Assembly: GCF_946893725.1 (NCBI RefSeq)
Contig: NZ_CAMPPE010000003.1
Span: 186,001-250,000 of the forward strand
DNA: 64,000 nucleotides
Reading direction: 5' to 3'
DNA from: Anaerococcus sp. Marseille-Q5996
Lineage (GTDB): Bacteria > Bacillota > Clostridia > Tissierellales > Peptoniphilaceae
Of this stretch, positions 14,914 to 40,819 are shown in pieces. A program made the translations under genes and the position numbers. The notes below the pieces were generated by a model. The model ran no database searches and was not told the DNA's origin. It saw only the letters and a list, made by a program, of their open reading frames with translations. Position 1 is the stretch's first letter. Each line of letters starts with the position of its first letter.

Positions 14914-15644
14914 TGTACGAATATTTTTCTTATATATATGATAAATTAAGCTTTGATATAGACTATGAAGGCTATGCGAAAAACATCTTAAATCTTTTAG
15001 ATAAGTACAATAATAAAAGAGAAAACATGCTGGAGCTTGCTGCAGGCTCTGGTATGCTTACTCATTATTTTTTTGATGAGTTTAAGAATATTGATGCCTT
15101 GGATATTTCACCAGATATGCTAAATGTTTTTGCTGAAAAATATGATAATGACAATGTAAATTTGATTTATTACGATATGGTCGAGTTTGAAAATCCTGAT
15201 AAATATGATTTGATAGTAATCCTACTAGATTCCATAAATTATGTAACAGACCCAAAAGAATTACAAAAACTTTTTGACAATTGCTATAAAAATCTTAAAG
15301 ATAATGGATTATTAGTTTTTGATATAAATTCAGAATATAAGATGAAAGAAGTTTTTGGTTCAAATTGTTATGTTTATGAGTATGAAGATATTTTCTATAC
15401 TTGGGACAACTTTTATGAAGATGATTTGATAGATATGCATTTGAATTTTTTTGTGGAGAATAAAGATGGTTGCTATGATAGGATTTACGAATATCAGTTG
15501 GAACGAGTGTATACTGTAGATCAAGTAAGTCAAAAAGTAAAAGAAGCTGGCTTTCATGATATAAAAACCTATGATGAAGATGATTTTGGTCCGGTTAAAG
15601 CAGATAGTTTACGAATTTTATTTAGTGCAGTAAAGGAAAAATAA
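14913..15644 (+). CDS. Class I SAM-dependent methyltransferase
   Basis: Methyltransferase of 243 residues; target unknown. SAM site: 'MLELAAGSGMLTHYFFDEF' (motif I, about 38-56), acidic residue at the end of strand 2 in 'NIDALDISPDML', then 'DLIVILLDSINYVTDPKELQ' (motif IV region) and 'LLVFDINSEYKM'. The fold resembles small-molecule or tRNA-modifying enzymes. It is coupled to valS upstream and to a cold-shock gene downstream by one-base TAATG overlaps, so all three share a transcript that may be governed by the T-box. Confidence 0.85.
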   Translation: MYEYFSYIYDKLSFDIDYEGYAKNILNLLDKYNNKRENMLELAAGSGMLTHYFFDEFKNIDALDISPDMLNVFAEKYDNDNVNLIYYDMVEFENPDKYDLIVILLDSINYVTDPKELQKLFDNCYKNLKDNGLLVFDINSEYKMKEVFGSNCYVYEYEDIFYTWDNFYEDDLIDMHLNFFVENKDGCYDRIYEYQLERVYTVDQVSQKVKEAGFHDIKTYDEDDFGPVKADSLRILFSAVKEK

Positions 15645-20813: not shown

Positions 20814-23800
20814 ATGCCAAAGAAGAAAAACAAAAATAAGTTTATAATAGGTCTATCATCTACCATGCTAGGTGCATTGATGATAGCATCAGCTCCAGAT
20901 GCTCACGCTGCTGAAGCTACAAATATAGTTTATGAAATCAATGAAAATGCTGATTTTATTGAGCCTACAACTACTGAAGAAGATAGCGGATATAGCACTA
21001 ATGACACTACTGCTGAAGAAGAATCCACCAGCGAAGAAACTACATTGGTAGAAGAATCATCAAAAAGTGAAAATTTAATAGATTCAGAAGCTGATGCCCT
21101 AAATCTTGAAGACTCAGCAGAAGAGGCCAATACTCAAAAAGTTAGCAACGAAAATAATGAGGAATTTACAGATAAAACTGACCCAGTGGATGAGTCAATT
21201 GAAACCTCATCTGATACTAGTGATGACCTTATTAACCAAGATCCCGAAGAAAAGAGTCAATCCATTGATTCAAACCGAAGTGCTGCAGAAACTGATTTTG
21301 CTACAGCAACGGATGCAGTTGACAAATCCAATACAGAAGATAATACAAATGCTCTGAAAGATATACCAGCAGACAATGAAGCCATAAAGGAATCTGAATC
21401 TGGAGATAGTCCAGAAGACTCTTCAGTGGAAGGGGGACTTAAAAAAGACACAGAGGCAGGTGACGACCCACTATTAGAAGAAGACGATAAGCTTCCTAAA
21501 ACATCTGAAGGTGCACAATTGCCATCAGAAGAAGGTGCAGAAGTTTTAGCTGAAAAAAAACTAGAAATTTCAGAAGAAAAGACACCTCAAGCCCAACAAG
21601 CCGGGGAAGGCGAAGAAGCAACTGAACCAAATTATGCCGAAGACGAAAAGAAGATCAAAGACTATAGTGGCGAAGAACGCTATCGTTCAACCGAGATGGA
21701 ACAAGGTAATGGCACAGCTGCCAACTTTATTCCACCTGATGAAATGAATGAATTTGTAGATGGTTACCGCTATCATAGCTCAGAACCGTCTGCAGCAAGT
21801 GAAGACAAGACCCAATGGGGAGTCGAGATTGAAATCGACAAGGAAAAAGGTCAAAGAACATACACTGACTTTTATTTTACCAATACTGGTAATATGGGAG
21901 GAGTGCTTGATACCGGTAATGTTTCTGCTAATGAAGCAGGTGATAAAATTGCTGGAGGAGAGAAAGATCCAAATTATAAGGCTACATCTGAGATAAAAAT
22001 AGACGGAAGAAGAGATCAGAGGAACTTAAATCTCTATGCCACTGAAGATGATATAAAACATATAAATAACATAGATAATACCAACACAACAATGGCTTGG
22101 CAAGGTAAGTATAAAAAAGACCACTATGTTAAACCTAATGCTACTGAGGGAGCCAGTGCTCAATTTAGTTTCACAGTCAACCCTTGGCCAAATGAGAACG
22201 ACAAGCTTAGCCTTATCAAACTAAACGGAAGTCATGACCAAAAAGAATTTGTCCAAGGCCAAACTATTACAACTGGAGTCAAGGTTGAAAACCTAGATGA
22301 CAATGCTAGGGAAAGACTTGTAGGCCAAGTCTACAATCCTATTACAGGTGAAGTTGTCAAAGGAGCTAAAGCCTATATTGATGAAAATGACAATGTAGTA
22401 GTCAAAATGCCTGATGGTGCCCTAAAGAAAGACGCTAATGGCAAGACTGTTATCAATGAAGATTCTATCTTCAATACACCTGAATACAAGAATCTTCAAA
22501 ATCTAGAAGTCAAATTCTTTGCCCGTCCAAGAACGGCAGAAGAATTTAAAGCTATAGTTGAGGGTAATGGCAATGGCTATTACACAGAAACAGGTGCCGG
22601 CACAGCTACAATTAACCACAATGGTAAAGATGTTGTAATTGACAAGCAAGGCATCGACCGTTACGACCACTATAACCTTATCGGTGACTTCAAGCTAAAC
22701 CTAGATGACACACGCTACTATGACCAAGACTTTAAAGATCAAGAAGGAAAAAAACTTGATGACCATACTTCTACAAAGGTATTTCCCGGTAATGACTTTA
22801 GTGTCGAGATACAAGATCCGGCAGAAACTGGTGGAACTCAAAAAACTGGTGGAGAGATGGACGGCGCTTATAGTCGTGGAGAAGCATCAGGTAAACTAAA
22901 AGAAGAATTCCTTGATATAGCCAACAAGCAAATTGCTGATGATTTGGGAGTTGATTATGATGAATTTATCACAAGCGAGGATTACGCAGACAAACGCTGG
23001 ATAGTTGATGGTAAGTCTGACAATATTTCAAAGTTTACAATAAGAGCTCCAAAACAAGCTAAGGCCGGGGACTTCTTAGCCCTACCTGTTGAATACACTT
23101 ATACAAATGGATCTACAGACACCCACTGGTTCCACTTTGTTGTCCAAGAAACCAACAACAATAGACCGGAATACCTGGCAGAGGTAGGACCACAAGGAAA
23201 TACCTTAGTCAATAAGCCAATCATTACAAAAAGTGAAGAGGACTTAAAGAAAAACCAACCTCAGTCCTACGAACTTATTGGAAATACCTTTAAGGACAAC
23301 AAGGGAAATGTTTGGAATGTATCTATTGACCAAGAAACAGGTGCTGTAACAGCGACTCTTCCAACAAATCTTCCTGATGGAAAGGAAATAAATGGAGGGG
23401 AAAAATTAACTGTTCCTGTTAAAGTAAAATATACTGACCAAACGACAGGTGAAGAAAAAACTGAAGAAATCAAAGCTCAATTTATTGCCACAAAGCAACA
23501 TAAGACTTTAACCAATGAAACAAAGACATCTGAAATACCTTATGAAACAGAGGTCGTATACGACGAAAATCTTCCAGAAGGTCACTTCCAAGAAACACAA
23601 GCTGGTCAAAAGGGAGAACTAAAGATAACTTTCGTCCAAGATACCCTAAATGGTAAAAAAGGTATTTTCCAACAAGATGGAACTTTTAAAGAAGGCGAAA
23701 GCAAAATTGAAGCAGTAGTTACTAAGGAAGCGACACCAAGAATTATAAAAATTGGTACAAAACCTGCTTCAACTACAGTAGAAATTCCATTTGATACAGA

Positions 23801-26800
23801 ATATGTTCCTGATAACACATTGGATGTAGGAAAAACCGAACTTATTAATGATGGTGAAAAGGGTGAAGTGACCATCACCACAACAAGAAATGAAGATGGA
23901 ACAATTACTGTAAATAAAAATGTTACTAAAGATGCAAAAAATAAGAAGGTCAAAATCGGTACCAAGACTCAAGGTCAAATTGTCGATACAGACAAGATTC
24001 CATTTGGATACAAGGTAGAATTTGATCCTGACTTCTACAAAAATTATCCAGACGCTACTGAAAACTACAAGATTGTAACTCCAGGAAAAGAAGGAGAAAA
24101 CACAAAGACTTGGACTATTGTCAATTCAGAAAAAGTTGGCGATCCAGAAGTTAAAATAACAGATCCAGTAGACGCTGTAATTAAAGTTGGTCAAAAAGCC
24201 TACAATGGTACCGTTACAAATACAGTTACAAAAGAAATTCCATATACTGTAAAGGTAGTAAAAAATCCGGAACTAGAAGCAGGCAAATCCAATGTTAAGC
24301 AAAAAGGTGTTGCCGGTTCAAGAACTTATGAATACACTGGTGAGATTGTAAATGGAAACTTAAAAGAAGGTTCTACATTTACAGAAAAAGAACTTACTGA
24401 TAAGTATGTTGCACCAAAAGAAGAGATAATCGAAATTGGTACAAAGCCAGCTGAAAATAGTAAAACTATTGATAGTGATGTTGAAGTGGATGTTGATATT
24501 ATCTATGATCCAACAATAGACAAGGGAGTAGTAAACATAGGAGATCTCAAACCTGGAACCGTAACAACTGTAGTTAAGAATGAATATGATCCAGAAACAG
24601 GAGAAATCAAAACTACAGAAGATACTGTTGTTACAAACCCATCAAGGAAAGTAGTTATTGGGACAAAAGATCTTACAGCATCTTATACAGAAGAAGATAA
24701 TGAAATAATTCCATTTAAGACTGAAATAGAATTTGATCCTAATTTAGAAGCTGGGAAACGAGAAACTAAACAAGTAGGTATTGACGGAGTAAGGACTACA
24801 AAAACTGATGTAAAGGTAGTAAATGGTGTAGTTACAAAGGGAAATCCAGTAGTAACAGAGTCTCAACCTCAAAATCAAATTATCAGAGTTGGTACAATGA
24901 CTGAAGGTAAGCACTCACACGAAGAAAAGATTCCGTTTAAGTATGAAATCGAATATGATTCCAACTTAAAGGCTGGAGAATATGTAGTAGATGTTGAGGG
25001 CAAAGAAGGCTCAAGAACTACTGAATGGACTATAAAGAATTCTGAAGTAGTTAAAGACTCTGCAAGTGTAACTAAAGAAGAAAAGCCTGTTAATGCACAA
25101 ATAAGAGTTGGAAAGAAAGACTTTACAGGAAATGTAAGCCACGAAGTGACAGAGGAAATTCCTTACGATGTAAAAGTAATTGAAGATCCAAATATGATAG
25201 CCGGCACAAGTGAGATTGTGACACAAGGTGTTGCAGGTTCTAAGACAACAAAATACACTCAAGCAGTCAAAAACGGCGAAGCTGATGGCGAACTTACTTC
25301 TGAAGTAACATCAACAACAAATCCTACTCAACAGGTAATTAAAGTTGGTACAAAACCAGCTGAAAATAATAAAGACTATTCAAAAGACGTAAATGTTAAA
25401 GTTGAATATGTTTACGACGAAAATTTAGACAAGGGTGTAGTCAAGGTTGGCGATCTAACCAAGGGCAAGGTAGAAATAAAGACTGTCAACAAATACGATC
25501 CAAAGACAGGGGAAGTAACAACTACTGAAGAAGAAAAAGTCACAGAAGCTACTCAAAAGATTATTGTAGGTACAAAAGACTTTACAGGAACTTACAAGTA
25601 CGATAAAACTTGTCCGATTCCATTTGAAGTAACAATTACGGAAGATCCAAATCTTGCTAAAGGTGAAAAAGTAGTTGATCAAGAAGGCCAAGCTGGCTCT
25701 AAGACAACTTATTATGAACAAGATATTAAAAATGGTCAACCAGATGGAGATCCAAAGAAACTAAACGAAAAAATAAACTCTCAACCTAAGAACCATATTG
25801 TCCGCATAGGTACAAAAGTTTCAGAAAGCTCAACAGTAAAAACTGTAGATAGAGAAATACCTTTTGAAACAGAATATATTTATGACGATACTATGGATGC
25901 AGGAAGTGAAAAAGTAGAAAGCGAAGGCAAAGTCGGTAAAGAAAAAGTAACCATTACTACAAAAATTACTGACGGTACCGGAGAAACTTCTGAAGAAACT
26001 AAGACTATCACAGAAAAAGAAGACAGGGTAGTTAGAATTGGTACAAAACCAGTTACTAAAGAAACTGAACTTCCTTCAAATACTGAATACCGCTACAATC
26101 CAGAACTTCCTGCTGGTGAAACTAAGGTTGTTGAAGAGGGAACGCCAGGTAAGTTAACCTATACCACAAGTTTCAACAAGGAAACTGGTAAGCTTGAAGT
26201 AACAGAAGAAAGAACTGAACCTACAAATAAGGTCGTAGAATATGGGTCTAAGACAGAAGGAACAGTAACTGTAGAAAGTGACATACCTTTTGAAGTAGAA
26301 ATCCAAGAAGATCCAGAATTAGAAGCTGGTACAACTAAAGTTGTTCAAGAAGGTGCGTTAGGTAAAAAGGAAACTACTATTACTATAGAAAATAGTAAGG
26401 AAGTTTCTAGGGAGGATAAGACAATAGCAGAGCCAACTAAGAAAATAATCAAAGTTGGAACCAAAAATGTCTGCGAAATCCCACCAGTAGATCCAACTGA
26501 TCCAACTGATCCGACCGACCCAACCGAACCTACAGATCCGGAAGAGCCAGGCGAAGAAGATCCGACAGATCCGCAAGACCCAGGTGAAGAAAATCCAACG
26601 GACCCAACCGAACCTACAGATCCGACAGATCCAACAAAACCTGAAGAACCAGGCAAACCAAACGAACCAGGTACTCCAGGAGAGACTACAGAAGATCCAG
26701 GTAAATCAAACGAATCAGATACTCCAGGAGAAACTCCAGAAGAGCCAGGTAAGCCAAACGAACCAGGTATTCCAGGCGAAGATCCAAAACCAGAAGATCC

Positions 26801-27236
26801 AACAACTGAAAAGCCAGATGATAAACTAACACCAGAAGAAATTCCTGGACATAATTCAGAATCAGAAGCAACTGAAAAACCAGAAACTCCTGATAAGTCA
26901 GACAAAACTGAACAGACAGGTAAGGATGACAAAACTGAAGATGGTGAAAAACCAGAAGAAACTGACAAGCTAGATACTAAAGATAAGACCGAGATAGAAA
27001 ACGAAGATAATGATATATCATCAGACAAGCTAAGAGTGCCAAGCCCATCAACATCTATCTCGTCTAACAACCAAGTAAGCTCACCTACTAGAAGTGTAGT
27101 TACTAAATCATCTGATAAAGGTGCAAGTAACAACGTAAAAACTGGTGTGAGCGGTGCTATTAATGTAGCGTCTATATTAGCTCTTGCTGGTGCTGGTTTA
27201 TACGCTACTAGAAATAAAGAAAACGAAGAAGAATAG
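20814..27236 (+). CDS. Giant G5-repeat cell-wall surface protein
   Basis: Secreted adhesin-like protein of 2140 residues. A lysine-rich start and hydrophobic segment end at AHA-AE (about 31-33), a signal peptide. Residues 34-290 are an acidic Ser/Thr/Glu-rich stalk. Residues about 300-880 form the apical domains, ending with a Rib-like module (SYELIGNTFKDNKG). From about 895 to 1886 there are 13 G5-type repeats, each ending near 'IKVGTK'; four of them are duplicated as a block. A Pro/Asp/Thr wall-spanning region (1890-2010) follows. The C-terminus has a hydrophobic stretch and charged tail preceded by NVKTG (2107-2111), a sorting motif with Val in place of Pro. Only two cysteines occur (1600, 1887). 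The architecture resembles SasG/Aap biofilm proteins. The ribosome site is GGAAAGGA. Confidence 0.93.
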   Translation: MPKKKNKNKFIIGLSSTMLGALMIASAPDAHAAEATNIVYEINENADFIEPTTTEEDSGYSTNDTTAEEESTSEETTLVEESSKSENLIDSEADALNLEDSAEEANTQKVSNENNEEFTDKTDPVDESIETSSDTSDDLINQDPEEKSQSIDSNRSAAETDFATATDAVDKSNTEDNTNALKDIPADNEAIKESESGDSPEDSSVEGGLKKDTEAGDDPLLEEDDKLPKTSEGAQLPSEEGAEVLAEKKLEISEEKTPQAQQAGEGEEATEPNYAEDEKKIKDYSGEERYRSTEMEQGNGTAANFIPPDEMNEFVDGYRYHSSEPSAASEDKTQWGVEIEIDKEKGQRTYTDFYFTNTGNMGGVLDTGNVSANEAGDKIAGGEKDPNYKATSEIKIDGRRDQRNLNLYATEDDIKHINNIDNTNTTMAWQGKYKKDHYVKPNATEGASAQFSFTVNPWPNENDKLSLIKLNGSHDQKEFVQGQTITTGVKVENLDDNARERLVGQVYNPITGEVVKGAKAYIDENDNVVVKMPDGALKKDANGKTVINEDSIFNTPEYKNLQNLEVKFFARPRTAEEFKAIVEGNGNGYYTETGAGTATINHNGKDVVIDKQGIDRYDHYNLIGDFKLNLDDTRYYDQDFKDQEGKKLDDHTSTKVFPGNDFSVEIQDPAETGGTQKTGGEMDGAYSRGEASGKLKEEFLDIANKQIADDLGVDYDEFITSEDYADKRWIVDGKSDNISKFTIRAPKQAKAGDFLALPVEYTYTNGSTDTHWFHFVVQETNNNRPEYLAEVGPQGNTLVNKPIITKSEEDLKKNQPQSYELIGNTFKDNKGNVWNVSIDQETGAVTATLPTNLPDGKEINGGEKLTVPVKVKYTDQTTGEEKTEEIKAQFIATKQHKTLTNETKTSEIPYETEVVYDENLPEGHFQETQAGQKGELKITFVQDTLNGKKGIFQQDGTFKEGESKIEAVVTKEATPRIIKIGTKPASTTVEIPFDTEYVPDNTLDVGKTELINDGEKGEVTITTTRNEDGTITVNKNVTKDAKNKKVKIGTKTQGQIVDTDKIPFGYKVEFDPDFYKNYPDATENYKIVTPGKEGENTKTWTIVNSEKVGDPEVKITDPVDAVIKVGQKAYNGTVTNTVTKEIPYTVKVVKNPELEAGKSNVKQKGVAGSRTYEYTGEIVNGNLKEGSTFTEKELTDKYVAPKEEIIEIGTKPAENSKTIDSDVEVDVDIIYDPTIDKGVVNIGDLKPGTVTTVVKNEYDPETGEIKTTEDTVVTNPSRKVVIGTKDLTASYTEEDNEIIPFKTEIEFDPNLEAGKRETKQVGIDGVRTTKTDVKVVNGVVTKGNPVVTESQPQNQIIRVGTMTEGKHSHEEKIPFKYEIEYDSNLKAGEYVVDVEGKEGSRTTEWTIKNSEVVKDSASVTKEEKPVNAQIRVGKKDFTGNVSHEVTEEIPYDVKVIEDPNMIAGTSEIVTQGVAGSKTTKYTQAVKNGEADGELTSEVTSTTNPTQQVIKVGTKPAENNKDYSKDVNVKVEYVYDENLDKGVVKVGDLTKGKVEIKTVNKYDPKTGEVTTTEEEKVTEATQKIIVGTKDFTGTYKYDKTCPIPFEVTITEDPNLAKGEKVVDQEGQAGSKTTYYEQDIKNGQPDGDPKKLNEKINSQPKNHIVRIGTKVSESSTVKTVDREIPFETEYIYDDTMDAGSEKVESEGKVGKEKVTITTKITDGTGETSEETKTITEKEDRVVRIGTKPVTKETELPSNTEYRYNPELPAGETKVVEEGTPGKLTYTTSFNKETGKLEVTEERTEPTNKVVEYGSKTEGTVTVESDIPFEVEIQEDPELEAGTTKVVQEGALGKKETTITIENSKEVSREDKTIAEPTKKIIKVGTKNVCEIPPVDPTDPTDPTDPTEPTDPEEPGEEDPTDPQDPGEENPTDPTEPTDPTDPTKPEEPGKPNEPGTPGETTEDPGKSNESDTPGETPEEPGKPNEPGIPGEDPKPEDPTTEKPDDKLTPEEIPGHNSESEATEKPETPDKSDKTEQTGKDDKTEDGEKPEETDKLDTKDKTEIENEDNDISSDKLRVPSPSTSISSNNQVSSPTRSVVTKSSDKGASNNVKTGVSGAINVASILALAGAGLYATRNKENEEE
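23967..24899 (+). repeat. First copy of a four-repeat G5 block
   Basis: Four successive G5-type repeats (types D, A, B, C) of 933 bases. Type D opens with 'TQGQIVDTDKIPFGYKVEFD', type A with 'AYNGTV', type B with 'PAENSK' and contains 'DKGVVNIGDLKPG', type C opens with 'DLTASY'. The order and type of repeats recur in the next 918 bases. Confidence 0.8.
24900..25817 (+). repeat. Second copy of the four-repeat G5 block
   Basis: Repeats D', A', B', C' in the same order: D' opens with 'TEGKHSHEEKIPFKYEIEYD', A' with 'DFTGNV', B' with 'PAENNK' and contains 'DKGVVKVGDLTKG', C' opens with 'DFTGTY'. Each matches its counterpart in the first block better than its neighbours, as expected from a tandem duplication of the whole block followed by divergence. 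Confidence 0.8.
26490..26815 (+). repeat. Low-complexity Pro/Asp/Thr and Pro/Gly/Glu coding repeat
   Basis: Short tandem units encoding DPT/EPT triplets and then 'PGKPNEPG'-type units. This is the wall-spanning part of the G5 protein. It also produces a long spurious open frame on the minus strand. Confidence 0.85.
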
Positions 27237-31255: not shown

Positions 31256-31279
31256 ACGCTAGGAAACTAGCGTTTTTTT
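31256..31279 (+). terminator. Terminator of the kinase/paralogue operon
   Basis: CGCTAG pairs with CTAGCG around a GAAA tetraloop, then seven T's. Confidence 0.9.
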
Positions 31280-31302: not shown

Positions 31303-31308
31303 TATAAT
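31303..31308 (+). promoter_or_regulatory. -10 box of the TerB-C operon
   Basis: TATAAT 29 bases before the GTG start. No convincing -35; the expected place lies at the end of the upstream terminator, so the promoter is weak, needs an activator, or relies on read-through. Confidence 0.55.
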
Positions 31309-31337: not shown

Positions 31338-33080
31338 GTGAAATACGAAGACATCAAAAAAATGATTGATAATATAGCAAGCGATATTTCTAAGCTTCAA
31401 AATAATGAAAAACATACATTTAAGAGAAAAATAGAAGCTGGAGATATGAAGGGTGTCATCGATATAAGCCTAGATAAAGAAGTCAAAATTCCTGAAAAAT
31501 TGCCAGATGAAAAACCAATCATAAAAGACTATAGATATTGGATTTTAAAACTTGACCGCCAATATAAGTCAAAAGCAATGAGAGTAAATCAATTAAATGT
31601 AGCTGCCCTTAAGATGTATGCGAAGCTTTGTGAAAAATTAGAAATTTTCCTAAATGAACAAGGAACAACTGTTGCTAGGAAGGTATCAAGCCTTCGTAGA
31701 GAAGGTCTGAATTTTGATTTATACTACACGATTTATCTGATAGCAGAAACTTATGTAATTAATTTTTATAACCCCTTATCCCAAAAAACAGCAGATAGGT
31801 CATTTAAAATTGTAGAAAATAATGTAGGTCATGAAGCAAGAAATATTATAGAAAATGAAGCTGAAAGATTAACTAGGGAATTAAAGCCTGCTGATAAGCA
31901 AACTCGTGAGTATTTTAAATTAACAGATAGTAATAAAGTATCCTTGTGGTGGGATGCGGATGGCTCTTTAAGAAAAAAATATAATTTTTCTAAAGATGAG
32001 CAAATTGCCATAGATCAGATTTCAAAACGTACTAATGTGCTTTGGAGAAATAAAAACGTATTTAATATCCTAATGGACCTTTATCTATCAACTCTAAGGG
32101 CCTTGTTTGACTATGAACAAATAAAAACTGATAGGCTAATAAAAATTATTAAACCCTATCAACAGTCCAAGGATATTTTAGATGCGATTTTGGTAATTTC
32201 TGAGAAAAATCTACGTGAAAAATTTACTTTTTATGGTTGGATTTCTACAAACAAGGCTAGGGATTTGCTAAAAGAAGAAGTTAATGAGGATATATATTTA
32301 TTTATAAAAAAATACCAAACAGACTACTTAAATAACTTGGATGAAGAATTGGTAGATGAAATATATAGGGAATATTTCGAAAAAAACCCCAATAAGATTC
32401 AAGATTTTATAAACTATTTGATAGGGCTTGATACAAAAAAACAAATCACTCTTATAAAAGATTACGAAAACAAAGAAAATTTTGAAAGAATCTTAAATGA
32501 ACTTGTAAAATCTTATGATGAAGAAAATAAAATTATTGGCTTGTTCTATTTTTATAAGAAGGGAATTAATAAAAAGAGTACAGAAAAATATTTATTTGAA
32601 GTTATTAACAAAGAAAACTATGATAAATTTTTAAATCTTGTAAATCAAAATGAACTTAGTGAAGAACTAATAGATGAGATAAGGGATTTAGAAAAAATTG
32701 CCCCTAAAAAAATAAAAGTCGATAGTAAAAAAATAGATATTTCTCGTAAAAATCTAGACAAAACTGTAAGTATGGTCAATGATTTTTATGAAGATGTGGA
32801 AATCAAAGAGGAAGAAACCCTAGAAAAAACTTTGACAACAAATAATGAAAATAATTATGATGGCATACTAATAAAAATTTTGGATCAGGGTTTTATTAGC
32901 ACAGATGAACTTGAAAGTTTAGGCAAAGAAAAGGGCTTGACTTTAAACTCATTTTTAAGCAATATAAACGAATCCTTATTTGATTACATAGGTGATCAGA
33001 CCTTACTAATTGATGGCGAAAAAGTAATTATAGATGAATTTTATGTAGATATGATAAAGGAGTATGTAGATGGCAAATAG
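31338..33080 (+). CDS. TerB-N/TerB-C domain protein
   Basis: First gene of the candidate defence/stress island, 580 residues. The N-terminal part (about 60-280) resembles the TerB-N module ('YRYWILKLDRQYKSKAMRV', 'VARKVSSLRREG'). The middle is helical and Lys/Glu-rich, and the last 70 residues match TerB-C ('LIKILDQGFISTDELESLGKEKGL' to 'LIDGEKVIIDEFYV'). These domains belong to the tellurite-resistance-linked Ter group and are thought to act as metal-sensing or scaffold modules. Start is GTG at 31338 with an AGGGGG site; the ATG two bases earlier is out of frame. The end overlaps the next gene by 11 bases. No TerC, TerD or TerZ gene is near, so tellurite resistance is not implied. Confidence 0.82.
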   Translation: MKYEDIKKMIDNIASDISKLQNNEKHTFKRKIEAGDMKGVIDISLDKEVKIPEKLPDEKPIIKDYRYWILKLDRQYKSKAMRVNQLNVAALKMYAKLCEKLEIFLNEQGTTVARKVSSLRREGLNFDLYYTIYLIAETYVINFYNPLSQKTADRSFKIVENNVGHEARNIIENEAERLTRELKPADKQTREYFKLTDSNKVSLWWDADGSLRKKYNFSKDEQIAIDQISKRTNVLWRNKNVFNILMDLYLSTLRALFDYEQIKTDRLIKIIKPYQQSKDILDAILVISEKNLREKFTFYGWISTNKARDLLKEEVNEDIYLFIKKYQTDYLNNLDEELVDEIYREYFEKNPNKIQDFINYLIGLDTKKQITLIKDYENKENFERILNELVKSYDEENKIIGLFYFYKKGINKKSTEKYLFEVINKENYDKFLNLVNQNELSEELIDEIRDLEKIAPKKIKVDSKKIDISRKNLDKTVSMVNDFYEDVEIKEEETLEKTLTTNNENNYDGILIKILDQGFISTDELESLGKEKGLTLNSFLSNINESLFDYIGDQTLLIDGEKVIIDEFYVDMIKEYVDGK

Positions 33081-34395
33081 AATAAATCCCAAAGAGGCAT
33101 CAATTATCATAAAATCTTTAGAGGGTGGGGTTGTACCCAATTTGGGAGTTCAACATCTTTTAGTAGGCAGAAATAGAGAAGTTGAAGAAGTAATCAAAAT
33201 TTTAGATAATGTAGCTGATGGAGAAAGTGATATTCGCTTTTGGGTTGGTGATTTTGGTTCTGGAAAAAGCTTTATGCTTGCTACAATCGAGCAAATTGCC
33301 CTGCAAAAAAACTTTGTTGTTTCGACATTGGATTTAAATCCATCTAGAAGATTTTATGCAACAGATAGGAAAGCTGTTGCCCTTTATACAGAGATAATAG
33401 ATAATATTAAAACTAAAACCCTAAAAAGCGGGAATGTTTTAAGTTCTATAATAGAAGAATGGCTAAACCAAATTTTTTCAAGAGTTTCTGAAGACCTTAA
33501 TGTAGAAGCATCAGAAATAATAGAGGGAAATTATCAAAAAGAGGTTACCAATGAGATTTTAAATATCATTGGTGATTTCTCAGCAGTTGGCTTGTCCTAT
33601 GAATTTGCTCAGGCCATTGTCAAGTTTTATGAAGGATTCATAAATGATAATAGACTGTTAAAAACAAATGCCATCAGATGGTTAAGGGGAGATGTCACAA
33701 CCAAGACCGAAGCCAAAAAAGAACTTTCTATTAATCAAATAATCAATGATGACAATTGGTTTGACGCTTTAAAAAATATGAGTGAGCTATTATTGGGAAT
33801 AGGCTACAGTGGATTTGTAGTAAATTTTGATGAGGCAGTTAATTTATACAAAATCCCTCAATCAGTGACCCGTGAGAGAAATTATGAACGTATTTTAAAT
33901 ATCTATAATGAAGCTAAATCAAATATTGCCAAGGGTTTATTTATTAATTTCGGGGCCACTCGTAAAACAATTTTTGATGAAAATCGTGGTCTATCTTCCT
34001 ATGGAGCGCTTAAAGGCAGACTTGGTAATGAAGATAGTATGGACAATAAATTAGTAAATACAAATCGTACAGTCCTTGGGCTTAAACCACTTTCTAATGA
34101 GGAAATCTATACACTTTTAGAAAATTTGGTAAATGTTTATAATGTCCACTATAAAGAATCAATTCAAATTAGCGAAAAAGAAATAATTACCTATATGGAA
34201 GGTCAATTAAATAGACCAGGGGCTGATGAATTTTTAACCCCTCGTGCAGTAATAAAAGATTTTATAGAAATACTTGACCTAAAAAGACAAAATTCAAATG
34301 TGGATTTGATGGACATAATCAGTGAGAGATTTAAAGATGTTTTAGAAATTAGCAAAGATCCAGCCGATATGGATGATGAGATTGAAATAATATGA
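33070..34395 (+). CDS. BrxD-like ATP-binding protein (DUF2791)
   Basis: P-loop ATPase of 441 residues like BrxD of type 2 BREX phage-defence loci. 'GGVVPNLGVQHLLVGRNREV' (19-38) is the family's opening block, Walker A GDFGSGKS spans 60-67, and Walker B is 'GFVVNFDEAVNLY'. The 'GLFINFGATRKTIFDE' text and 'LTPRAVIKDFIEIL' near the end also fit. The family is predicted to load or drive a partner helicase, which here is the next gene (ATGA overlap). The other BREX parts (PglZ, BrxC, methylase) are absent from the window. Confidence 0.88.
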   Translation: MANRINPKEASIIIKSLEGGVVPNLGVQHLLVGRNREVEEVIKILDNVADGESDIRFWVGDFGSGKSFMLATIEQIALQKNFVVSTLDLNPSRRFYATDRKAVALYTEIIDNIKTKTLKSGNVLSSIIEEWLNQIFSRVSEDLNVEASEIIEGNYQKEVTNEILNIIGDFSAVGLSYEFAQAIVKFYEGFINDNRLLKTNAIRWLRGDVTTKTEAKKELSINQIINDDNWFDALKNMSELLLGIGYSGFVVNFDEAVNLYKIPQSVTRERNYERILNIYNEAKSNIAKGLFINFGATRKTIFDENRGLSSYGALKGRLGNEDSMDNKLVNTNRTVLGLKPLSNEEIYTLLENLVNVYNVHYKESIQISEKEIITYMEGQLNRPGADEFLTPRAVIKDFIEILDLKRQNSNVDLMDIISERFKDVLEISKDPADMDDEIEII

Positions 34396-36521
34396 CAGAT
34401 TCATTTTCTTTACTAAATCGTGAACTTAGATTTTATATTCATGAAAAAGGTTGGCCAGCGCTTACAAAAATTCAAAATGCTTCTATAAAAGCATTTTTTA
34501 GTACAGACAATAACTTGATACTATCAGCAGCTACAGCATCGGGCAAAACTGAAGCTGCATTTTTGCCTGCCATTAGCAAGGTCACTTCTTGGGATAAGGG
34601 TGTAAAAATTTTATATATTTCACCCCTAATAGCTCTAATAAATGACCAGTTTAAACGTATAAATGATATGTGTTTTGATATGAATATCCCCATCACATCT
34701 TGGTATGGGGAAGCAAGCAAGGCAAAAAAAGACAATCTTATTGAAAGCCCAAGGGGAATTTTGCTTATTACCCCAGAATCTATCGAAGCTTTATTATCTG
34801 GAAAACCAGAAATTGCTAAGATTCTTTTTGATGACCTTGAATACATAATAATAGATGAAATCCATAGTTTTTTATCTGGTAATCGCGGTTTGCAGTTAAA
34901 ATCGCTTTTAGACCGCATCTTGCGTTTTACCTATGAAATACCAAGAATGATTGGTCTTTCTGCAACCATAGGGGATTTAAATTATGGTTTAGCAAAATCT
35001 TTTTTCAACAATGGTCGTGAAACAATCATTTTGCTTGACAAATCACAAAATGAATTTGAATATACTTTTGATTTGACAGAAGACATCAACTTATCAAATG
35101 AATACCTAAATCTTATGCATGATTATTCTTTAGAGGGGCCTATGCTTATTTTCCCAAATTCTAGGGAAAAAGTAGAACTAATTGCAGTCCAGCTAGCTAA
35201 TATTTATAAGAGCCTCAATGAAGACATAAAAATATTTGCCCACCACTCGTCAGTTAGCAAAAATCGCAGACAAGAAATAGAAGAATTTGCAAAAGAAGCC
35301 CGAAGTGAAAAATATGTCATAGTTGCCACCTCTACCTTAGAATTAGGCATTGACATAGGATCTGTGACATCAGTGGTTCAATTTGGAGCTGCTCATTCAG
35401 TTTTATCACTTGCCCAAAGATTAGGAAGAAGTGGTAGAAAAACTCACAAATCAATTCTCCATCAAATAAATATCGGAGTCTATGATGCCCTACAATCAAT
35501 GGCAGCTATTAGCCTTTTTGAAGAAGGGTTCTTAGATAAAATAGAAGTAAGCAAAAAAGCTTATGATGTTTTTGCCCACCAAGTTTTATCTACACTTTTA
35601 GAAAATTATGGTCTAGCAATTGAAGAATATAAGTATTTAAATAAGACTTTATCCACTTTTTCTGATATTAATGATGAGGAATTTGAGCAAATTACAGATT
35701 TTATGGCCCAAGAAGGTTTTATAGAGATACTAGAAAATGAAGTAATAACAGGGATAAATTTAGATAATTTAATGTTTATGGGCAGATTTTACAATCAATT
35801 TTTAACCGCCCAAGCATTTACAGTTTATAATGAGTCTGGCAAAGTAGGAGAAATAGAGATTAGACCAGAAATTCAAGAAGAAGCAAATATATTTTTAGCA
35901 GGACAGGTCTGGAAGATTGAAAAAATATATAGGGATAGCAAAAAAATTAGAGTTTCAACTGCCAATGAAGGGGCTCCTCCTAAATTTTTATCAGCTGGAG
36001 ATGTAGATGTAAGCCCAATTATTAGACAGCGAATGAGATATATAATTGATAATCCGAAAGATTTTGAATTTGATGAAGAGTCCAAAAAATACATTTATGA
36101 GCTCCATGATGTCTTAAAGGATTACCAATATCCATTTTCAATTGAGAATGATTATATAGGCCTAATTACTTTTCAATCTACAAAAGTAAATAGGACTCTT
36201 GCCATAATGTTTAATATTATAAGCAAATCGACTTCATATTTTATTTCTGAAGCAGATAGTATGGTTTGTGGGCCAAAAACCCCAGAAGTTTTTGACGAAT
36301 GTAGGATAAATCCAGTAAGAAGAGATAGAATTTTTAATTTTTTAATGAAAGAAAAAACTTTGCTTGATGCATATCTAAGCTCAAACAAATATATGATTTT
36401 AGTTCCAGAAAATTTACGCGCAGATTATGTAATAAATAATTATCTTGATATTGATGGAGCTTATAAGTATTTGGAGTTAGATATTAATAATGTTGATACA
36501 AAAAATCAGCAAACTTATTAA
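34392..36521 (+). CDS. Lhr-like DEAD/DEAH-box helicase
   Basis: Superfamily 2 helicase of 709 residues, like BrxHI that pairs with BrxD. Q-motif region 'PALTKIQNASI', Walker A ATASGKT (47-53), DEIH (155-158), SAT (190-192), motif V 'TSTLELGIDIGS', motif VI 'QRLGRSGRKTH'. The C-terminal third (about 440-700) is a winged-helix and accessory region without a recognised enzyme. All ATPase motifs look intact. It is translationally coupled to the ATPase upstream (4-base ATGA overlap), so the three first genes form one unit. Confidence 0.9.
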   Translation: MTDSFSLLNRELRFYIHEKGWPALTKIQNASIKAFFSTDNNLILSAATASGKTEAAFLPAISKVTSWDKGVKILYISPLIALINDQFKRINDMCFDMNIPITSWYGEASKAKKDNLIESPRGILLITPESIEALLSGKPEIAKILFDDLEYIIIDEIHSFLSGNRGLQLKSLLDRILRFTYEIPRMIGLSATIGDLNYGLAKSFFNNGRETIILLDKSQNEFEYTFDLTEDINLSNEYLNLMHDYSLEGPMLIFPNSREKVELIAVQLANIYKSLNEDIKIFAHHSSVSKNRRQEIEEFAKEARSEKYVIVATSTLELGIDIGSVTSVVQFGAAHSVLSLAQRLGRSGRKTHKSILHQINIGVYDALQSMAAISLFEEGFLDKIEVSKKAYDVFAHQVLSTLLENYGLAIEEYKYLNKTLSTFSDINDEEFEQITDFMAQEGFIEILENEVITGINLDNLMFMGRFYNQFLTAQAFTVYNESGKVGEIEIRPEIQEEANIFLAGQVWKIEKIYRDSKKIRVSTANEGAPPKFLSAGDVDVSPIIRQRMRYIIDNPKDFEFDEESKKYIYELHDVLKDYQYPFSIENDYIGLITFQSTKVNRTLAIMFNIISKSTSYFISEADSMVCGPKTPEVFDECRINPVRRDRIFNFLMKEKTLLDAYLSSNKYMILVPENLRADYVINNYLDIDGAYKYLELDINNVDTKNQQTY

Positions 36522-36572
36522 CCATACTATTTATGGTAAAATATAGATAAAATGATAATTAAAGGATATTTA

Positions 36573-37589
36573 ATGAAGAAATTTTTGTATATACTTACAT
36601 TATTAATACTAACTGCCTGTGGCAACATGGCTAAGGAGGGGGGAGTTCCTCCTATTACCAATAGTGGTGAAGATGAAGTTGTCGATCAGTCAAATATTTC
36701 TTTGGAGGATATTAAACCCAAAAGCCCCACTTTAAAACAACCTATCTTTGAGCCTCATGAACTTGACTATGAGATAAATAAACCGGGATTTTTGCTTAAG
36801 GAAAGGTTTGCTGACTTAGAAACTCAAGACAAATATGCCGTCAAAATGATGGAATACTACGATCAAGAAGATGAAATGTTTTATGTAAGTCGAATTATAA
36901 CTGAAGCCCTCCAAGACCCAAAGGTTACGCTTACAAATGATTTTGATGATAAGATGAAGTTTGCAAGTGACCTTTTTTTGCTAAGCCCATATTATTCAGA
37001 AGGTAGGATGGAACCCTATATTTATGCCAATTATTGGTTTGATGAAGAGACTTTTAAAATAGTTCCAAGATACAAAATCGAAGAAAATACCAAAACTTAT
37101 ATGACTGAAGAGCAAAAAGCTCAGGTTGAAAATCAGTTAGATGTACTAGTAGATTATGCTAATGAAAATTATGATAATGATTATGATAAGGCTTATTATT
37201 TTGCCCAATGGCTTGCTGAAAATAATGAATATCAATTTGTGTCAGATCAAGATAATTTAATAGAAAATAATATGTACGGAGCTATGGTCAAAGGACTATC
37301 TCAATGCTCTGGTTTTGCTCAAAGTTTTGCAATTCTTTGCCAAAGAGTGGGCATACCCGCATATTCAGTTACTGGAAATACAAATGAGAAAAATAGACCA
37401 GATGGATACTCTGGAGAACACCAGTGGAATGTTGTAAAACTAAACGATAATTGGTCATATGTTGATGTTACGGGCATGGTAGCAAATGGAAGACCTTATT
37501 ATTTTTATTATTTTGACAGGTCAAAAGAAGAATTTGTAGATTATTATGTGAGCAGCTTTTTTAATGATATAGAGGAGTATATAAGATGA
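36573..37589 (+). CDS. Transglutaminase-fold lipoprotein
   Basis: Surface lipoprotein of 338 residues. The ATG at 36573 is preferred to one at 36552 because AAAGGA precedes it and the signal peptide then begins as MKKFLYILTL; the lipobox LTAC gives Cys16. The C-terminal half is a transglutaminase-like domain with the triad Cys245 (QCSGFAQ), His283 (GEHQWNV) and Asp298 (YVDVTG), the arrangement of bacterial peptidase or cross-linking members. It starts 51 bases after the helicase stop; a TTGATA and TATTAA pair (36494-36522) could be a separate promoter. It shares an ATGA overlap with the next gene. Confidence 0.87.
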   Translation: MKKFLYILTLLILTACGNMAKEGGVPPITNSGEDEVVDQSNISLEDIKPKSPTLKQPIFEPHELDYEINKPGFLLKERFADLETQDKYAVKMMEYYDQEDEMFYVSRIITEALQDPKVTLTNDFDDKMKFASDLFLLSPYYSEGRMEPYIYANYWFDEETFKIVPRYKIEENTKTYMTEEQKAQVENQLDVLVDYANENYDNDYDKAYYFAQWLAENNEYQFVSDQDNLIENNMYGAMVKGLSQCSGFAQSFAILCQRVGIPAYSVTGNTNEKNRPDGYSGEHQWNVVKLNDNWSYVDVTGMVANGRPYYFYYFDRSKEEFVDYYVSSFFNDIEEYIR

Positions 37590-38002
37590 TTGTAAATCCT
37601 TACAGTGAATTAATTTCTTTGCATGACATGGATATCATAGATTTTGTAGTAGAAGATGGCAAGGCTATTATAAAACTTAGCCAAGCCTTTTTGTTTTCAG
37701 CTAGGGCAGATTATGTCCTTGATAATCCTGTAGTGATAGCAAATGATTTGATAGAAATTAAAGCTAATGAAGATTATCCTATAAGAATAAAACTAATAAA
37801 TAATGATAAAATACTTAGCTTAAGTGTTAATGATTTTAAGGATTACAGATTTAATATACTAGAAGAGGCATACGGATTTGGGCTAGTTCATTTTTATGGG
37901 ATAGCTACAAAACTTGACAAGGCATATGATTGCTTTATCGACATACATTATTGTGGAGACTTAGAAATAAATTGGGACAACAAGGTATTAGTAGAGGTAT
38001 AA
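37586..38002 (+). CDS. Hypothetical protein between lipoprotein and macro-domain genes
   Basis: Unrecognised soluble protein of 138 residues. It looks like a beta-rich fold ('KAIIKLSQAFLFSARADYV', 'LIEIKANEDYPIRIKLIN') with a C-terminal part 'CFIDIHYCGDLEINWDNKVLVEV'. Start overlaps the preceding stop (ATGA) and it ends one base before the macro-domain gene, so it is translated in series with both. No catalytic motif is evident. Confidence 0.75.
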   Translation: MIVNPYSELISLHDMDIIDFVVEDGKAIIKLSQAFLFSARADYVLDNPVVIANDLIEIKANEDYPIRIKLINNDKILSLSVNDFKDYRFNILEEAYGFGLVHFYGIATKLDKAYDCFIDIHYCGDLEINWDNKVLVEV

Positions 38003-38003
38003 G

Positions 38004-38501
38004 ATGAGTTTTCAAATTATAAGTAAAGATATTACAAAACTTGATGTAGATGCAATAGTAAATGCTTCAAATACTTCTTTACAAATGGGAGGGGGAGTCT
38101 GTGGAGCAATTTTTAGGGCAGCTGGAGCTGATCAATTGCGAAAAGCTTGTGATATGATTGGCCCAATAAAAACAGGTCAAGCAGTAATGACAGATGGATA
38201 TAATTTAAAAGCAAAACATATAATCCATACTGCAGGACCAGTTTTTGACTCTCAACATCCAGAGAAATCTAAAGAATTACTAGAAAATTCTTATAAAAAT
38301 TCCTTAAATTTAGCAAGAAAGCACAATTTTAAATCAATAGCCTTTCCACTTATTTCTGCAGGCATTTATGGTTATCCTAAAAAAGAAGCATTTGATATTG
38401 CTAAAAATACTATTAATAAAATTTTAATAGATAATGATACGGATGTTTATCTTACAATAATCGATAAAGATTTGTTAGATAGTGTAGCTAAGGTAGATTA
38501 A
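38004..38501 (+). CDS. Macro-domain protein (ADP-ribose binding)
   Basis: Single macro domain of 165 residues. The ADP-ribose pocket is clear: Asp9 in 'ISKDITKLDVDAIVNASN', Asn20/Asn23, glycine loop GGGV (29-32), and the phosphate loop 'LISAGIYGYP' (117-125). In MacroD/YmdB-type hydrolases the first loop reads GGGVDGAIH; here it reads GGGVCGAIF, so the usual Asp (33) is Cys and the usual His (37) is Phe. It should still bind ADP-ribose, but hydrolysis by the MacroD mechanism is doubtful. It could remove or read ADP-ribose from proteins or nucleic acids. One base separates it from both the gene before and the HEPN gene after. Confidence 0.92.
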   Translation: MSFQIISKDITKLDVDAIVNASNTSLQMGGGVCGAIFRAAGADQLRKACDMIGPIKTGQAVMTDGYNLKAKHIIHTAGPVFDSQHPEKSKELLENSYKNSLNLARKHNFKSIAFPLISAGIYGYPKKEAFDIAKNTINKILIDNDTDVYLTIIDKDLLDSVAKVD

Positions 38502-38502
38502 T

Positions 38503-39423
38503 ATGCAACTTACAGACAAATTTACCTACGACAATTGCAAAAATAAAACTAAATATCAAATCAAACACCAAGAAATTCCCATTAGTCTAAGTAAAGAACT
38601 AAGAGAGGGGATTTACTATCTTTTATGGTATGTTCCAAATATAAAATCAGAACAATCTGAAAAAAATGAACTTCTTTTAAATCCCCAATACGATGATTTT
38701 ATTTTTATAGAACTTATGAATGCAATGGATTTAGCAGATGAGGATGTTTTATTTACAGAAACTATAACAAATCATATGATTAGCCCATTTTTAGAAGAGA
38801 TTTGTACAAAATGCCCCAAAATAATGATGACTATTGCTGGTGGGGAAACAAAAACTATGGCCCTTTTAAGGCACATAAGAAATGCCATTGCCCATGGAAA
38901 TTTTAATGTAATTGGAAATATGGTAGTGGGTTTTGACTTACAAAGATATGAAGATAAGGTCGAATATCGAGGATTTTTTAAGATTAATCCTAATAGGCTA
39001 CTGGATGCCTTAAGAAAAATTCAGTTTGATTATAATTCTCAGCAATTAATCAAAGAGGCTTTTAACAACACGGGATATTTTATTGAAGCCTATCAAGAAA
39101 AATATAAGAGAAGCCATGATTTCGAACTATTTGCTAGAAAAAATAATAAAAAATACGCAATTGATATAAAAAATTATAAGTATGATAAAGTGGTAGATCA
39201 AGATTTTGTTAAACAACTTATTATACAATATGAGGGGTTAATCAATGATATTACTCCAATTTTGATTATTAATACTTCTTTTCTCGATGATCCTAGCAAA
39301 AAAGAATTATTGACTCACAATGTAATAATCTTAGATGTAAAAAATATTCAAAAAATGATAAAGGGCCGTGATATGGTCGCTGAAATAGAACGTGCACAAG
39401 TGGTTAATCAAAGCTTAAAATAA
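38503..39423 (+). CDS. HEPN-like protein with C-terminal restriction-nuclease-like domain
   Basis: Protein of 306 residues with two nuclease signatures. The helical N-terminal part holds RNAIAH (126-131), the R-x4-H motif of HEPN ribonucleases, in the usual setting 'LLRHIRNAIAHGNF'. The C-terminal part has 'KKYAIDIKNYKYD': Asp221-x-Lys223, with Asp206 before it, which fits a PD-(D/E)xK nuclease core like those of Mrr-type enzymes. HEPN proteins are common effectors in phage defence and toxin systems. It is the last gene of the seven-gene run and joined by TAATATG to the macro-domain gene. HEPN is fairly firm; the second domain rests on a short motif. Confidence 0.72.
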   Translation: MQLTDKFTYDNCKNKTKYQIKHQEIPISLSKELREGIYYLLWYVPNIKSEQSEKNELLLNPQYDDFIFIELMNAMDLADEDVLFTETITNHMISPFLEEICTKCPKIMMTIAGGETKTMALLRHIRNAIAHGNFNVIGNMVVGFDLQRYEDKVEYRGFFKINPNRLLDALRKIQFDYNSQQLIKEAFNNTGYFIEAYQEKYKRSHDFELFARKNNKKYAIDIKNYKYDKVVDQDFVKQLIIQYEGLINDITPILIINTSFLDDPSKKELLTHNVIILDVKNIQKMIKGRDMVAEIERAQVVNQSLK

Positions 39424-39575: not shown

Positions 39576-40784
39576 ATGACAGATAGAAAAAATAATGATC
39601 CAAAAGTTGATACTTTTGAGACAGAAACAACTGTTGAAAGATCAAATAATCGCCAAACAGGCAGAGCGCCACGTAGAGGCGAAAGAGTAGAACGAACTGA
39701 AAGAGTTGAAAGACATAGAGAAGGTGTTCCGGTTTACGAAAGAGCAACAAGCGTACTTCCAGCAGGAAATAACCTTTCATGGGGATCAATCCTAGCAGGT
39801 GCTGTAACAGCAGCAGCAGTTTTTGCAACACTTAGCTTAATTACAGCAGCATTAGGATTTGGATTATTTTCACCAACTACAAATGACCCACTTTCAGGTG
39901 TAGGAGTTGGTACAGGAATTTGGACAGCAATCACACTTATTCTTTCATTCTTATGTGGTGGATACATCGCTGGTTATTCAGCTAGATCTACAGGTAAACT
40001 ACACGGTGCAATTACTTGGGCGGTAACACTTTTACTATTACTAACCCTAGTATTAAATGCTATTTCTTCAGTTTTAGGAACAGCTGCTAACGTTGCAGGT
40101 AGTGTAGCTGGTGGAGTAGGAAATGTAGCAGGTTCTGCAATCACAGCAACAAGTGATGCTATTGGTTCAGGATTTGAATCAGCAGGTAATGCTATAGAAG
40201 ATGTAAATGTTGATAATGAAGAAGTACAAGCAGATATCGAAAAATATCTATCAGATACAGATATTCCTGAACTACAACCAGATTATCTAAAAAGTCAACT
40301 TCAAGAATCAAGAGATCTAATCGCATCTGCAGCTAAAAATGTTGCTCTTAACCCAGATTCAGCAAATGCTGAGATTGATAGAGTTTCTAAAGATTTAGCT
40401 GATAGAGCTCAAACTATAGCTGACTCAGCTGATAGAGATGCAATTGCAAATGCAGTTGAAGCTAACTCTGATCTAACACAAGAGGAAGCTGAACAAGTTA
40501 CAGATAATATCTATAATGGTTTACAAGATGCTAATAAACAAGCACAAGAAACACTTGATGATGCATCTGTAAAAGTACAACAACTTGCTAACCAAACAGA
40601 AAGAACAGTTGATGAAACTGTTGAAGGTGCTAAAAAAGGAGCAGAAGATGCTTCTAACAAACTTTCAGCTGGTTCTGTAATCACATTTATCGGCCTACTT
40701 GCAGCTTTAGCTTTATCAGCTTGGGGTGGACAACTAGGTGAAGAAAAAGCAAAAGAACTAGTTAGAAGAGAAACAATTAGATAA
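39576..40784 (+). CDS. Membrane protein with extended helical region
   Basis: Function unknown, 402 residues. A charged Arg/Glu-rich cytoplasmic start (1-65, with 'RVERTERVERHRE') precedes two or three membrane segments at about 68-165. A long Ala/Asp/Gln-rich helical region (about 200-365), which looks coiled or apolipophorin-like, is followed by one more membrane segment near the C-terminus ('VITFIGLLAALALSAWGG'). The 'WGSILAGAVTAAAVFATLSLITAALGFG' text recurs in a group of uncharacterised bacterial membrane proteins. The strong AAGGAGG site and codon use suggest high expression. Confidence 0.82.
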   Translation: MTDRKNNDPKVDTFETETTVERSNNRQTGRAPRRGERVERTERVERHREGVPVYERATSVLPAGNNLSWGSILAGAVTAAAVFATLSLITAALGFGLFSPTTNDPLSGVGVGTGIWTAITLILSFLCGGYIAGYSARSTGKLHGAITWAVTLLLLLTLVLNAISSVLGTAANVAGSVAGGVGNVAGSAITATSDAIGSGFESAGNAIEDVNVDNEEVQADIEKYLSDTDIPELQPDYLKSQLQESRDLIASAAKNVALNPDSANAEIDRVSKDLADRAQTIADSADRDAIANAVEANSDLTQEEAEQVTDNIYNGLQDANKQAQETLDDASVKVQQLANQTERTVDETVEGAKKGAEDASNKLSAGSVITFIGLLAALALSAWGGQLGEEKAKELVRRETIR

Positions 40785-40791
40785 TAATATA

Positions 40792-40819
40792 AAAGAAGGC
40801 ATTAGCCTTCTTTTTTTGT
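40792..40819 (+). terminator. Terminator after the membrane protein at 39576
   Basis: AAAGAAGGC pairs with GCCTTCTTT around ATTA, followed by T's. Confidence 0.92.

Follow-up and report, generated by a model that had tools for sequence, protein, structure and literature searches.

Seven open reading frames (ORFs) follow one another on the + strand in a genome of Anaerococcus sp. Marseille-Q5996 (1.65 Mb, 15 contigs), at positions 31338..39423 of the window, which is the whole stretch of 64,000 nucleotides analysed here, and they raise the question of whether genes that lie end to end act as one system or are only neighbours. A preliminary description of this DNA proposed a single run linking a helicase core to lipoprotein, macro-domain and HEPN-nuclease genes, with the hedge that a break near 36.5 kb might divide it into two adjacent operons. 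Gene order, a conserved promoter element and the occurrence of the genes across genomes bear out the hedge and make one system of seven genes unlikely, since just 2/31 Anaerococcus genomes have the order intact and 12/31 have the HEPN gene without Shango. The run is very probably two neighbouring, independently started units: sngABC, a vertically inherited copy of the Shango antiphage system, and a lipoprotein-to-HEPN unit (hereafter unit 2) with its own predicted promoter.

The gene calls, domains, junctions of -4, +1 and +1 bases among genes 4 to 7, and the 51-base gap after the third gene, sngC, were all confirmed when the ORFs were re-read and compared with Pfam. The mechanical ORF of gene 4 begins at 36552, leaving 30 bases to the end of sngC, but the ATG at 36573 has AAAGGA at 36561-36566, six bases 5', and a lipoprotein signal, MKKFLYILTLLILTAC, begins there, so the gap of 51 bases is the better reading. 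Among the seven proteins, Pfam placed TerB_C, BrxC_BrxD, DEAD/Helicase_C, Transglut_core and Macro above the cut-off and gave no convincing match to the window copies of genes 5 and 7. Each of the seven ORFs, when searched or compared, has orthologues within the genus, and the ratio of nonsynonymous to synonymous substitution (dN/dS) against relatives is well below 1 where computable, a rough estimate given that dS is mostly >1. The run is more than a set of chance ORFs; the joining of its two halves is not more than a chance neighbourhood.

Comparison of neighbourhoods of ~20 kb in the 31 Anaerococcus genomes shows how loosely the halves are joined. The complete order without insertion or loss occurs only in G000 and G013, and in G013 the lipoprotein ORF, although open at 305 aa, is ~30 residues short, including the His stretch. 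The HEPN gene is present in 31/31 genomes, sngABC in 19, a full-length macro gene in 16, and the lipoprotein and 138-aa genes in nine each. Directly 3' of sngC lies the lipoprotein gene in 3/19 Shango genomes (G000, G013, G012); in 11/19 sngC is followed by a five-gene cluster, read here as an ABC transporter plus a two-component system, and in four of these 11 by two or three opposite-strand ORFs as well before the lipoprotein gene is reached. Five or more other ORFs stand between sngC and the HEPN gene in 11/19. Many Shango genomes have a fructosamine-kinase gene before sngA; in G023 and G026 only 61 bases separate this gene from the HEPN gene, an arrangement that, as judged from the flanking genes, represents an empty site lacking just sngABC. 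The third genome of this clade, G010, has one ORF between the two genes. Two observations weigh on the other side: the HEPN gene is directly 3' of sngC in 5/19 genomes (G022, G004, G005, G019 and G006, at 3-167 bases), and the HEPN locus is the site of every one of the 19 Shango copies in the genus, which leaves an Anaerococcus-specific functional tie conceivable.

Profile searches of 130 genomes of the family and, for SngB, 391 genomes of the class extended this comparison. The HEPN profile matched 68 family genomes (one, G082, with a weak partial match) and SngB was found in 26. Stops seen inside HEPN matches were disregarded, because a profile match can extend beyond the real stop codon. 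Within Anaerococcus, the HEPN gene is present in 19/19 SngB-bearing and in 12/12 Shango-less genomes; outside the genus, the HEPN profile found no match in 7/7 SngB-bearing genomes of the family. Across the class, SngB was matched at E up to 0.001 in 46/391 genomes, some of the matches being weak. The 27 Shango loci read outside the genus came from 20 of the 44 non-Anaerococcus class genomes with any SngB match, five further family genomes, and L079 and L080. No HEPN, lipoprotein or 138-aa homologue was found at any of the 27 at E up to 0.01; in 26 of these loci 1.0-7.9 kb were read beyond sngC (more distant genes being missed), and in L184 no sngC was found; one, L174, has a macro gene ~2.6 kb after sngC. 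The gene-neighbourhood search proposed in the preliminary description, which took halves never found together as a sign of chance adjacency, points mostly towards such adjacency: the halves adjoin in some Anaerococcus and are separated or single in most, and they share a locus inside this genus and only there among the genomes seen.

Promoter-like elements are also consistent with two transcription units. The motif GGTA[AC]AAT begins 33-38 bases 5' of the lipoprotein gene in 9/9 genomes that carry this gene, and is kept under three upstream neighbours: sngC, a gene read here as a histidine kinase, and a divergent gene. Of 636 other ORFs in the loci examined, 3 have it at the same position, and these 3 belong to a single one of 193 clusters; among the HEPN genes, counted apart, 2 of 36 have it. 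Several results weigh against an independent start. The site at 36534-36542 goes unmarked in a two-hexamer promoter scan, as it has no -35 match, and over the region the scan returned 64 sites against 62.2 in shuffles, no excess; the -10 motif is common in the window (10 occurrences against 1.8 expected, 9/10 inside ORFs); and the nine promoter-bearing genomes are one clade rather than nine independent trials. The case for the predicted promoter thus draws its weight from position and from the changing upstream context. In addition, a pattern scan found no + strand terminator in the 36521-36573 gap, so read-through from sngC is possible and some of unit 2 may be transcribed along with sngABC. 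The preliminary description would have taken a promoter and a terminator in this gap as a sign of chance adjacency; a conserved promoter-like element is there, and no terminator was found.

For the first unit, TATAATG lies near the sngA start in 19/19 Anaerococcus, at -22 to -48 in 16 and at 26-38 bases inside the ORF in three, which we take for over-long ORF calls; this element is likewise not flagged by the two-hexamer scan. A related pattern, GGGTA[AT], resembling the lipoprotein-gene promoter, occurs at -52 to -26 before 15/36 HEPN copies, many of which have no lipoprotein gene upstream (L064, L066-L069, L071, L072 and others), and the other unit 2 genes may have been inserted between a promoter of this type and the HEPN gene. 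A sigma-B-like reading of the GGGTAAA found before many HEPN genes was set aside, no -35 half being evident by eye.

Table 1. Positions in the window of the genes and signals assigned to the two units
Feature	Position	Strand	Basis or remark
Terminator-like hairpin and T run	31256..31273	+	Pattern scan, consensus match only; divides sngA from the fructosamine-kinase gene
Predicted -10 element TATAAT (G next) of sngA	31303..31308	+	35 bases 5' of the sngA start
sngA, TerB-C protein of Shango, 580 aa	31338..33080	+	PADLOC SngA, Pfam TerB_C
sngB, BrxC/D-type ATPase of Shango, 441 aa	33070..34395	+	PADLOC SngB; Walker A/B
sngC, Lhr/BrxHI-like superfamily 2 (SF2) helicase of Shango, 709 aa	34392..36521	+	PADLOC SngC; helicase motifs
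Predicted extended -10 element TGGTAAAAT of unit 2	36534..36542 (hexamer 36537-36542)	+	Conserved position, 9/9 genomes
Transglutaminase-core lipoprotein, 338 aa from ATG 36573	36573..37589 (frame open from 36552)	+	Pfam Transglut_core
138-aa protein without convincing family	37586..38002	+	Orthologues in 9/31 Anaerococcus
Macro-domain protein, 165 aa, O-acetyl-ADP-ribose deacetylase-like	38004..38501	+	Pfam Macro
HEPN and PD-(D/E)XK (Mrr-like) protein, 306 aa	38503..39423	+	R126-N-A-x-A-H131; Pfam matches of relatives; AlphaFold2 model

The first three genes encode the Shango antiphage system, as judged from PADLOC matches to SngA, SngB and SngC that stand far above the BREX alternatives. Gene 2 matches SngB at 2.7e-143 and BrxD at 4.2e-41, gene 3 matches SngC at 9.3e-164 and BrxHI at 8.9e-103, and gene 1 matches SngA at 1.6e-15 (55.7 bits) over residues 281-575, the C-terminal half only, along with Pfam TerB_C at 8e-8. 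Walker A and B are present in 21/21 SngB copies, and in SngC the motif I GKT, DExH and QxxGRSGR are found in 21/21 and the motif III SAT/SAS in 20/21. The order sngA-sngB-sngC, adjacent in the window, recurs in 19/19 Anaerococcus loci with SngB. The available part of PMC10250203 describes Shango as a system of TerB-like, ATPase and helicase genes that protects against phage in other hosts, and reports SngA-SngB-SngC from E. coli and Pseudomonas aeruginosa cDHS1; SngC is also treated in the accessible portion of PMC12278908. The preliminary description had not recognised the TerB-C/BrxD/Lhr core as a described system, a point that PADLOC and the excerpt of PMC10250203 correct.

The Anaerococcus version shares with Shango its three genes in order (a TerB-type protein, a BrxC/D ATPase and an Lhr/BrxHI-like helicase, as in the PADLOC models) but differs in two respects. 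One is the divergence of SngA: the PADLOC model, matched by 12/12 aligned SngA members, sees only the C-terminal half in the window, and Pfam finds TerB_C in all 12 members and no row for TerB (PF05099) at E up to 1, although TerB (PF05099) is the domain listed for SngA in the available part of PMC10952713. An Anaerococcus SngA profile recovered SngA in only 12/27 of the outside loci, which suggests that the protein has drifted far in this genus. SngA is also the fastest-changing Shango protein here, with a mean distance of 0.60 versus 0.28 for SngB, and in five genomes it measures 453-473 aa instead of the usual ~580, an N-proximal stretch being absent. The other difference is the apparent vertical inheritance at one site, as opposed to a shuffled defence hotspot.

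Type 2 BREX, considered and rejected, contains a BrxD ATPase and a BrxHI helicase homologous to this dyad, but they score far below SngB and SngC, and gene 2 reaches 141.2 bits against the NCBIfam BrxD cut-off of 350. No PglX, PglZ or BrxC row appeared among 39 window proteins scanned, nine of them at E up to 0.1 (for sngC, among the best 25 of 61 matches) and 30 at 1e-10; these 39 are part of the window ORFs and include all nine + strand ORFs of at least 130 aa at 29.9-40.8 kb. The BrxD-BrxHI pair nevertheless offers an analogy for mechanism, being tightly linked, with helicase loading suggested, in the part of PMC12839542 at hand. By this analogy SngB, a BrxD-type ATPase, would probably load or license the SngC helicase on invading DNA, and the TerB-C protein SngA might serve as adaptor or sensor. 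Literature searches on TerB/DUF2791 returned nothing further on Shango mechanism among the matches listed.

Within the genus Shango looks vertically inherited at one chromosomal site, because SngB distances track those of flanking genes and the Shango label requires few changes on the HEPN tree. Correlation is high with genes on both sides, at r 0.95 (n=14) for the fructosamine-kinase gene upstream and r 0.93 (n=17) for the core gene c3 downstream; the label needs two changes, both forced by starred branches, versus a mean of 9.8 in shuffles. One alignment excluded L119, which has a stop in its translation, and L132. sngABC was gained and lost as a block, most simply with the gain in the common ancestor of 22 genomes of one clade and a single loss in G010/G023/G026, provided that the midpoint root of the tree, with its two long outgroup branches, is correctly placed.

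The gene at the end of the run has a different distribution, and its presence in every Anaerococcus genome is the behaviour of a core gene passed on vertically. Its HEPN/REase-like character, already proposed in the preliminary description, is supported by its relatives and, for the nuclease half, by a structural model. The window copy matches 0 Pfam families, and among 32 aligned relatives HEPN pEK499_p136 was found in 31 (best 3.2e-5) and Mrr_cat in 12, each at E up to 1. The R-x4-H motif, R126-N-A-x-A-H131 in the window, is present in 65/66 copies, the other copy being gapped there and most likely a split ORF of L122. The nuclease residues E208, D221 and K223 are all present in the window protein, and across the copies the catalytic lysine is kept in 44/66 and replaced in 22/66. 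An AlphaFold2 model of gene 7 (predicted local distance difference test score, pLDDT, 81.8) led fold searches to the PD-(D/E)XK fold; no HEPN structure was among the matches listed, in which the nuclease half fills the list. When PDB sequences were searched with the HEPN profile, none of the matches was strong enough to convince (best E 0.0052, to interferon-inducible GTPases).

These features place gene 7 close to the HEPN pEK499_p136 family, with its near-invariant R-x4-H, the Pfam matches of its relatives and a gene that adjoins Macro. It differs from this family in carrying an Mrr-like PD-(D/E)XK domain on the same chain, whereas PMC3710099, in the portion available, has restriction-modification (R-M) genes as operon neighbours and not as a fusion, and in its core-like, apparently vertical inheritance. 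Other points of comparison are the nuclease domains of Can2/Cdn1/Card1 and AF1548, which we take to be Mrr-like / PD-(D/E)XK nucleases. No CARF sensor domain is among the Pfam matches listed for gene 7 relatives, and the replacement of the catalytic lysine in 22 copies sets the gene apart from Mrr-like / PD-(D/E)XK nucleases. Given the near-invariant R-x4-H, the HEPN protein would most likely act alone as a regulated RNase, and its Mrr-like domain may bind or cut DNA. Its upstream neighbour varies across the 31 Anaerococcus and 30 other loci, with no constant antitoxin partner gene. An origin as a mobile or phage gene was considered and rejected: 28 IMG/VR stretches matched a pattern and none was confirmed, and no PHROG was found at E up to 0.1. 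Literature searches on HEPN in relation to the core genome, to macro domains or to Peptoniphilus returned nothing relevant by title and abstract among the matches listed. A second, diverged HEPN-PD-(D/E)XK copy exists in L081, L082 and L083 (G002, G020 and G016), in each case with 6 bases between it and a preceding gene of 158 aa (called at 209 aa in G002) that reads as hotdog/thioesterase-like.

Between the HEPN gene and whatever lies upstream, the lipoprotein, 138-aa and macro genes are, by their distribution, lineage-specific. The lipoprotein matches Pfam Transglut_core at 1.3e-12, with a lipobox and the Cys, His and Asp stretches visible in the window copy. The macro protein matches Pfam Macro at 5.1e-42, its best NCBIfam model scoring 158.8 bits, under the cut-off of 200. 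A DarT-DarG system was rejected, as the macro protein matches DarG only at 0.0066 and no other gene of the run matched DarT, for which no dedicated search was made. The 138-aa protein found no convincing family in profile searches, Pfam included; its orthologues stand just before the macro or HEPN gene in each of the nine genomes that have them. The products of unit 2 would be a lipoprotein of transglutaminase fold at the cell surface, the small 138-aa protein, an ADP-ribose hydrolase of the macro-domain type and the HEPN-PD-(D/E)XK protein, from which, or from whose targets, the macro protein may remove ADP-ribose. Lone C-terminal macro-domain fragments of 67 aa occur away from the HEPN locus in G012, G015, G021 and G022.

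Of the alternative explanations, the one that survives best keeps the macro and HEPN-PD-(D/E)XK genes as a functional pair that has no part in Shango and forms an RNase module under ADP-ribose control. In the 67 genomes with HEPN used for distances (the partial match in G082, macro fragments and several weak macro rows being left out), the macro gene lies <=5 kb from the HEPN gene in 23/45 genomes with both: 14/16 Anaerococcus, the other two at ~10 kb, and 9/12 of genus g57, where the orientation differs. A 2013 survey (Anantharaman et al.; PMC3710099), in the part accessible, places HEPN pEK499_p136 in operons with R-M, ADP-ribosyltransferase (ART) and Macro genes and Pgl components. Against the pair, proximity is seen in 0/17 genomes of other genera, although 11/17 have the genes on different contigs, at a distance not known, and 15/31 Anaerococcus keep the HEPN gene without a full-length macro gene. 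The pair is therefore a tentative proposal, and rather unlikely. The macro-HEPN proximity itself has some support, from two genera and from the excerpt of PMC3710099, as the one link of the preliminary description worth keeping, and it stands apart from Shango.

An Anaerococcus-only tie, in which Shango took over the core nuclease as its effector and was thereby kept at this site, is improbable. It draws on the position of 19/19 Shango copies upstream of HEPN on the same strand, five of them directly, and on the purifying selection that both appear to experience, with distances that track each other (r 0.91, n=19). SngB tracks the two flanking genes as well, however, so that vertical inheritance explains the correlation, and the intervening ORFs in 11/19 genomes also speak against a tie. 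Slightly more doubtful still is a role of the 138-aa protein as antitoxin or immunity partner of the HEPN protein: in 9/9 genomes its gene stands immediately before HEPN or with only the macro gene between, but 22/31 Anaerococcus keep HEPN without it, it has no family assignment, and the paralogous HEPN copies of three genomes follow the unrelated 158-aa gene (compared by hhalign, the 138-aa and 158-aa proteins gave a probability of 0.1).

A bolder proposal, which we regard as a long shot, is that the HEPN-PD-(D/E)XK protein is a genus-wide, chromosomally fixed RNA/DNA double nuclease that acts as a resident suicide effector, restrained by ADP-ribosylation until the neighbouring macro protein releases or resets it, and wired to Shango in the Shango clade. 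To our knowledge, no nuclease is known for Shango; if the proposal were true, the killing step of Shango would be supplied by a vertically kept core nuclease and not by a mobile cassette. Weakest of all, and very improbable, is one seven-gene system in which Shango senses the invader, a macro-tuned HEPN/PD-(D/E)XK protein is the toxic effector and the lipoprotein guards the surface, since the shared strand, short gaps, missing terminator, full order in G000 and G013, and the occurrence of Macro and Pgl components in operons with HEPN pEK499_p136 genes (PMC3710099, in part) are set against an order complete in two genomes (one with the shortened lipoprotein), HEPN genes without Shango in 12 Anaerococcus, Shango without a HEPN match in the seven other family genomes and at all 27 outside loci, and the predicted promoter of unit 2.

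Other features of the window lie outside the two units. A glycine-rich membrane-type protein of 402 aa (39576-40784) is encoded directly 3' of the HEPN gene, or one small ORF later, in 30/31 Anaerococcus; it may share the HEPN gene's transcript, because a terminator-like site (40791-40814) stands only after the 402-aa gene. Upstream, 20814-27236 encodes a 2140-aa surface-type protein that contains repeats; its N-terminal part is long and acidic, and its C-terminal part is rich in Pro and Gly. Isolated genes at 14913-15644 (mad2) and 759-1517 (mad3 and mad8) gave partial PADLOC matches to MADS proteins, which we suspect stem from general domains that these proteins have in common and not from a MADS system. 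Rfam gave no family at gathering score in 29-46 kb of the window.

The comparison of 31 genomes thus indicates that the apparent new seven-gene system is a false lead, made of Shango and a separately started neighbour. It also suggests that Shango can be a stable, vertically inherited component of a genus, most simply with one gain and one loss, as opposed to a passing island gene. In addition, the HEPN-PD-(D/E)XK gene, present in 31/31 Anaerococcus and about half of the family, illustrates that a type of gene usually filed under mobile defence can behave in a core-like manner.

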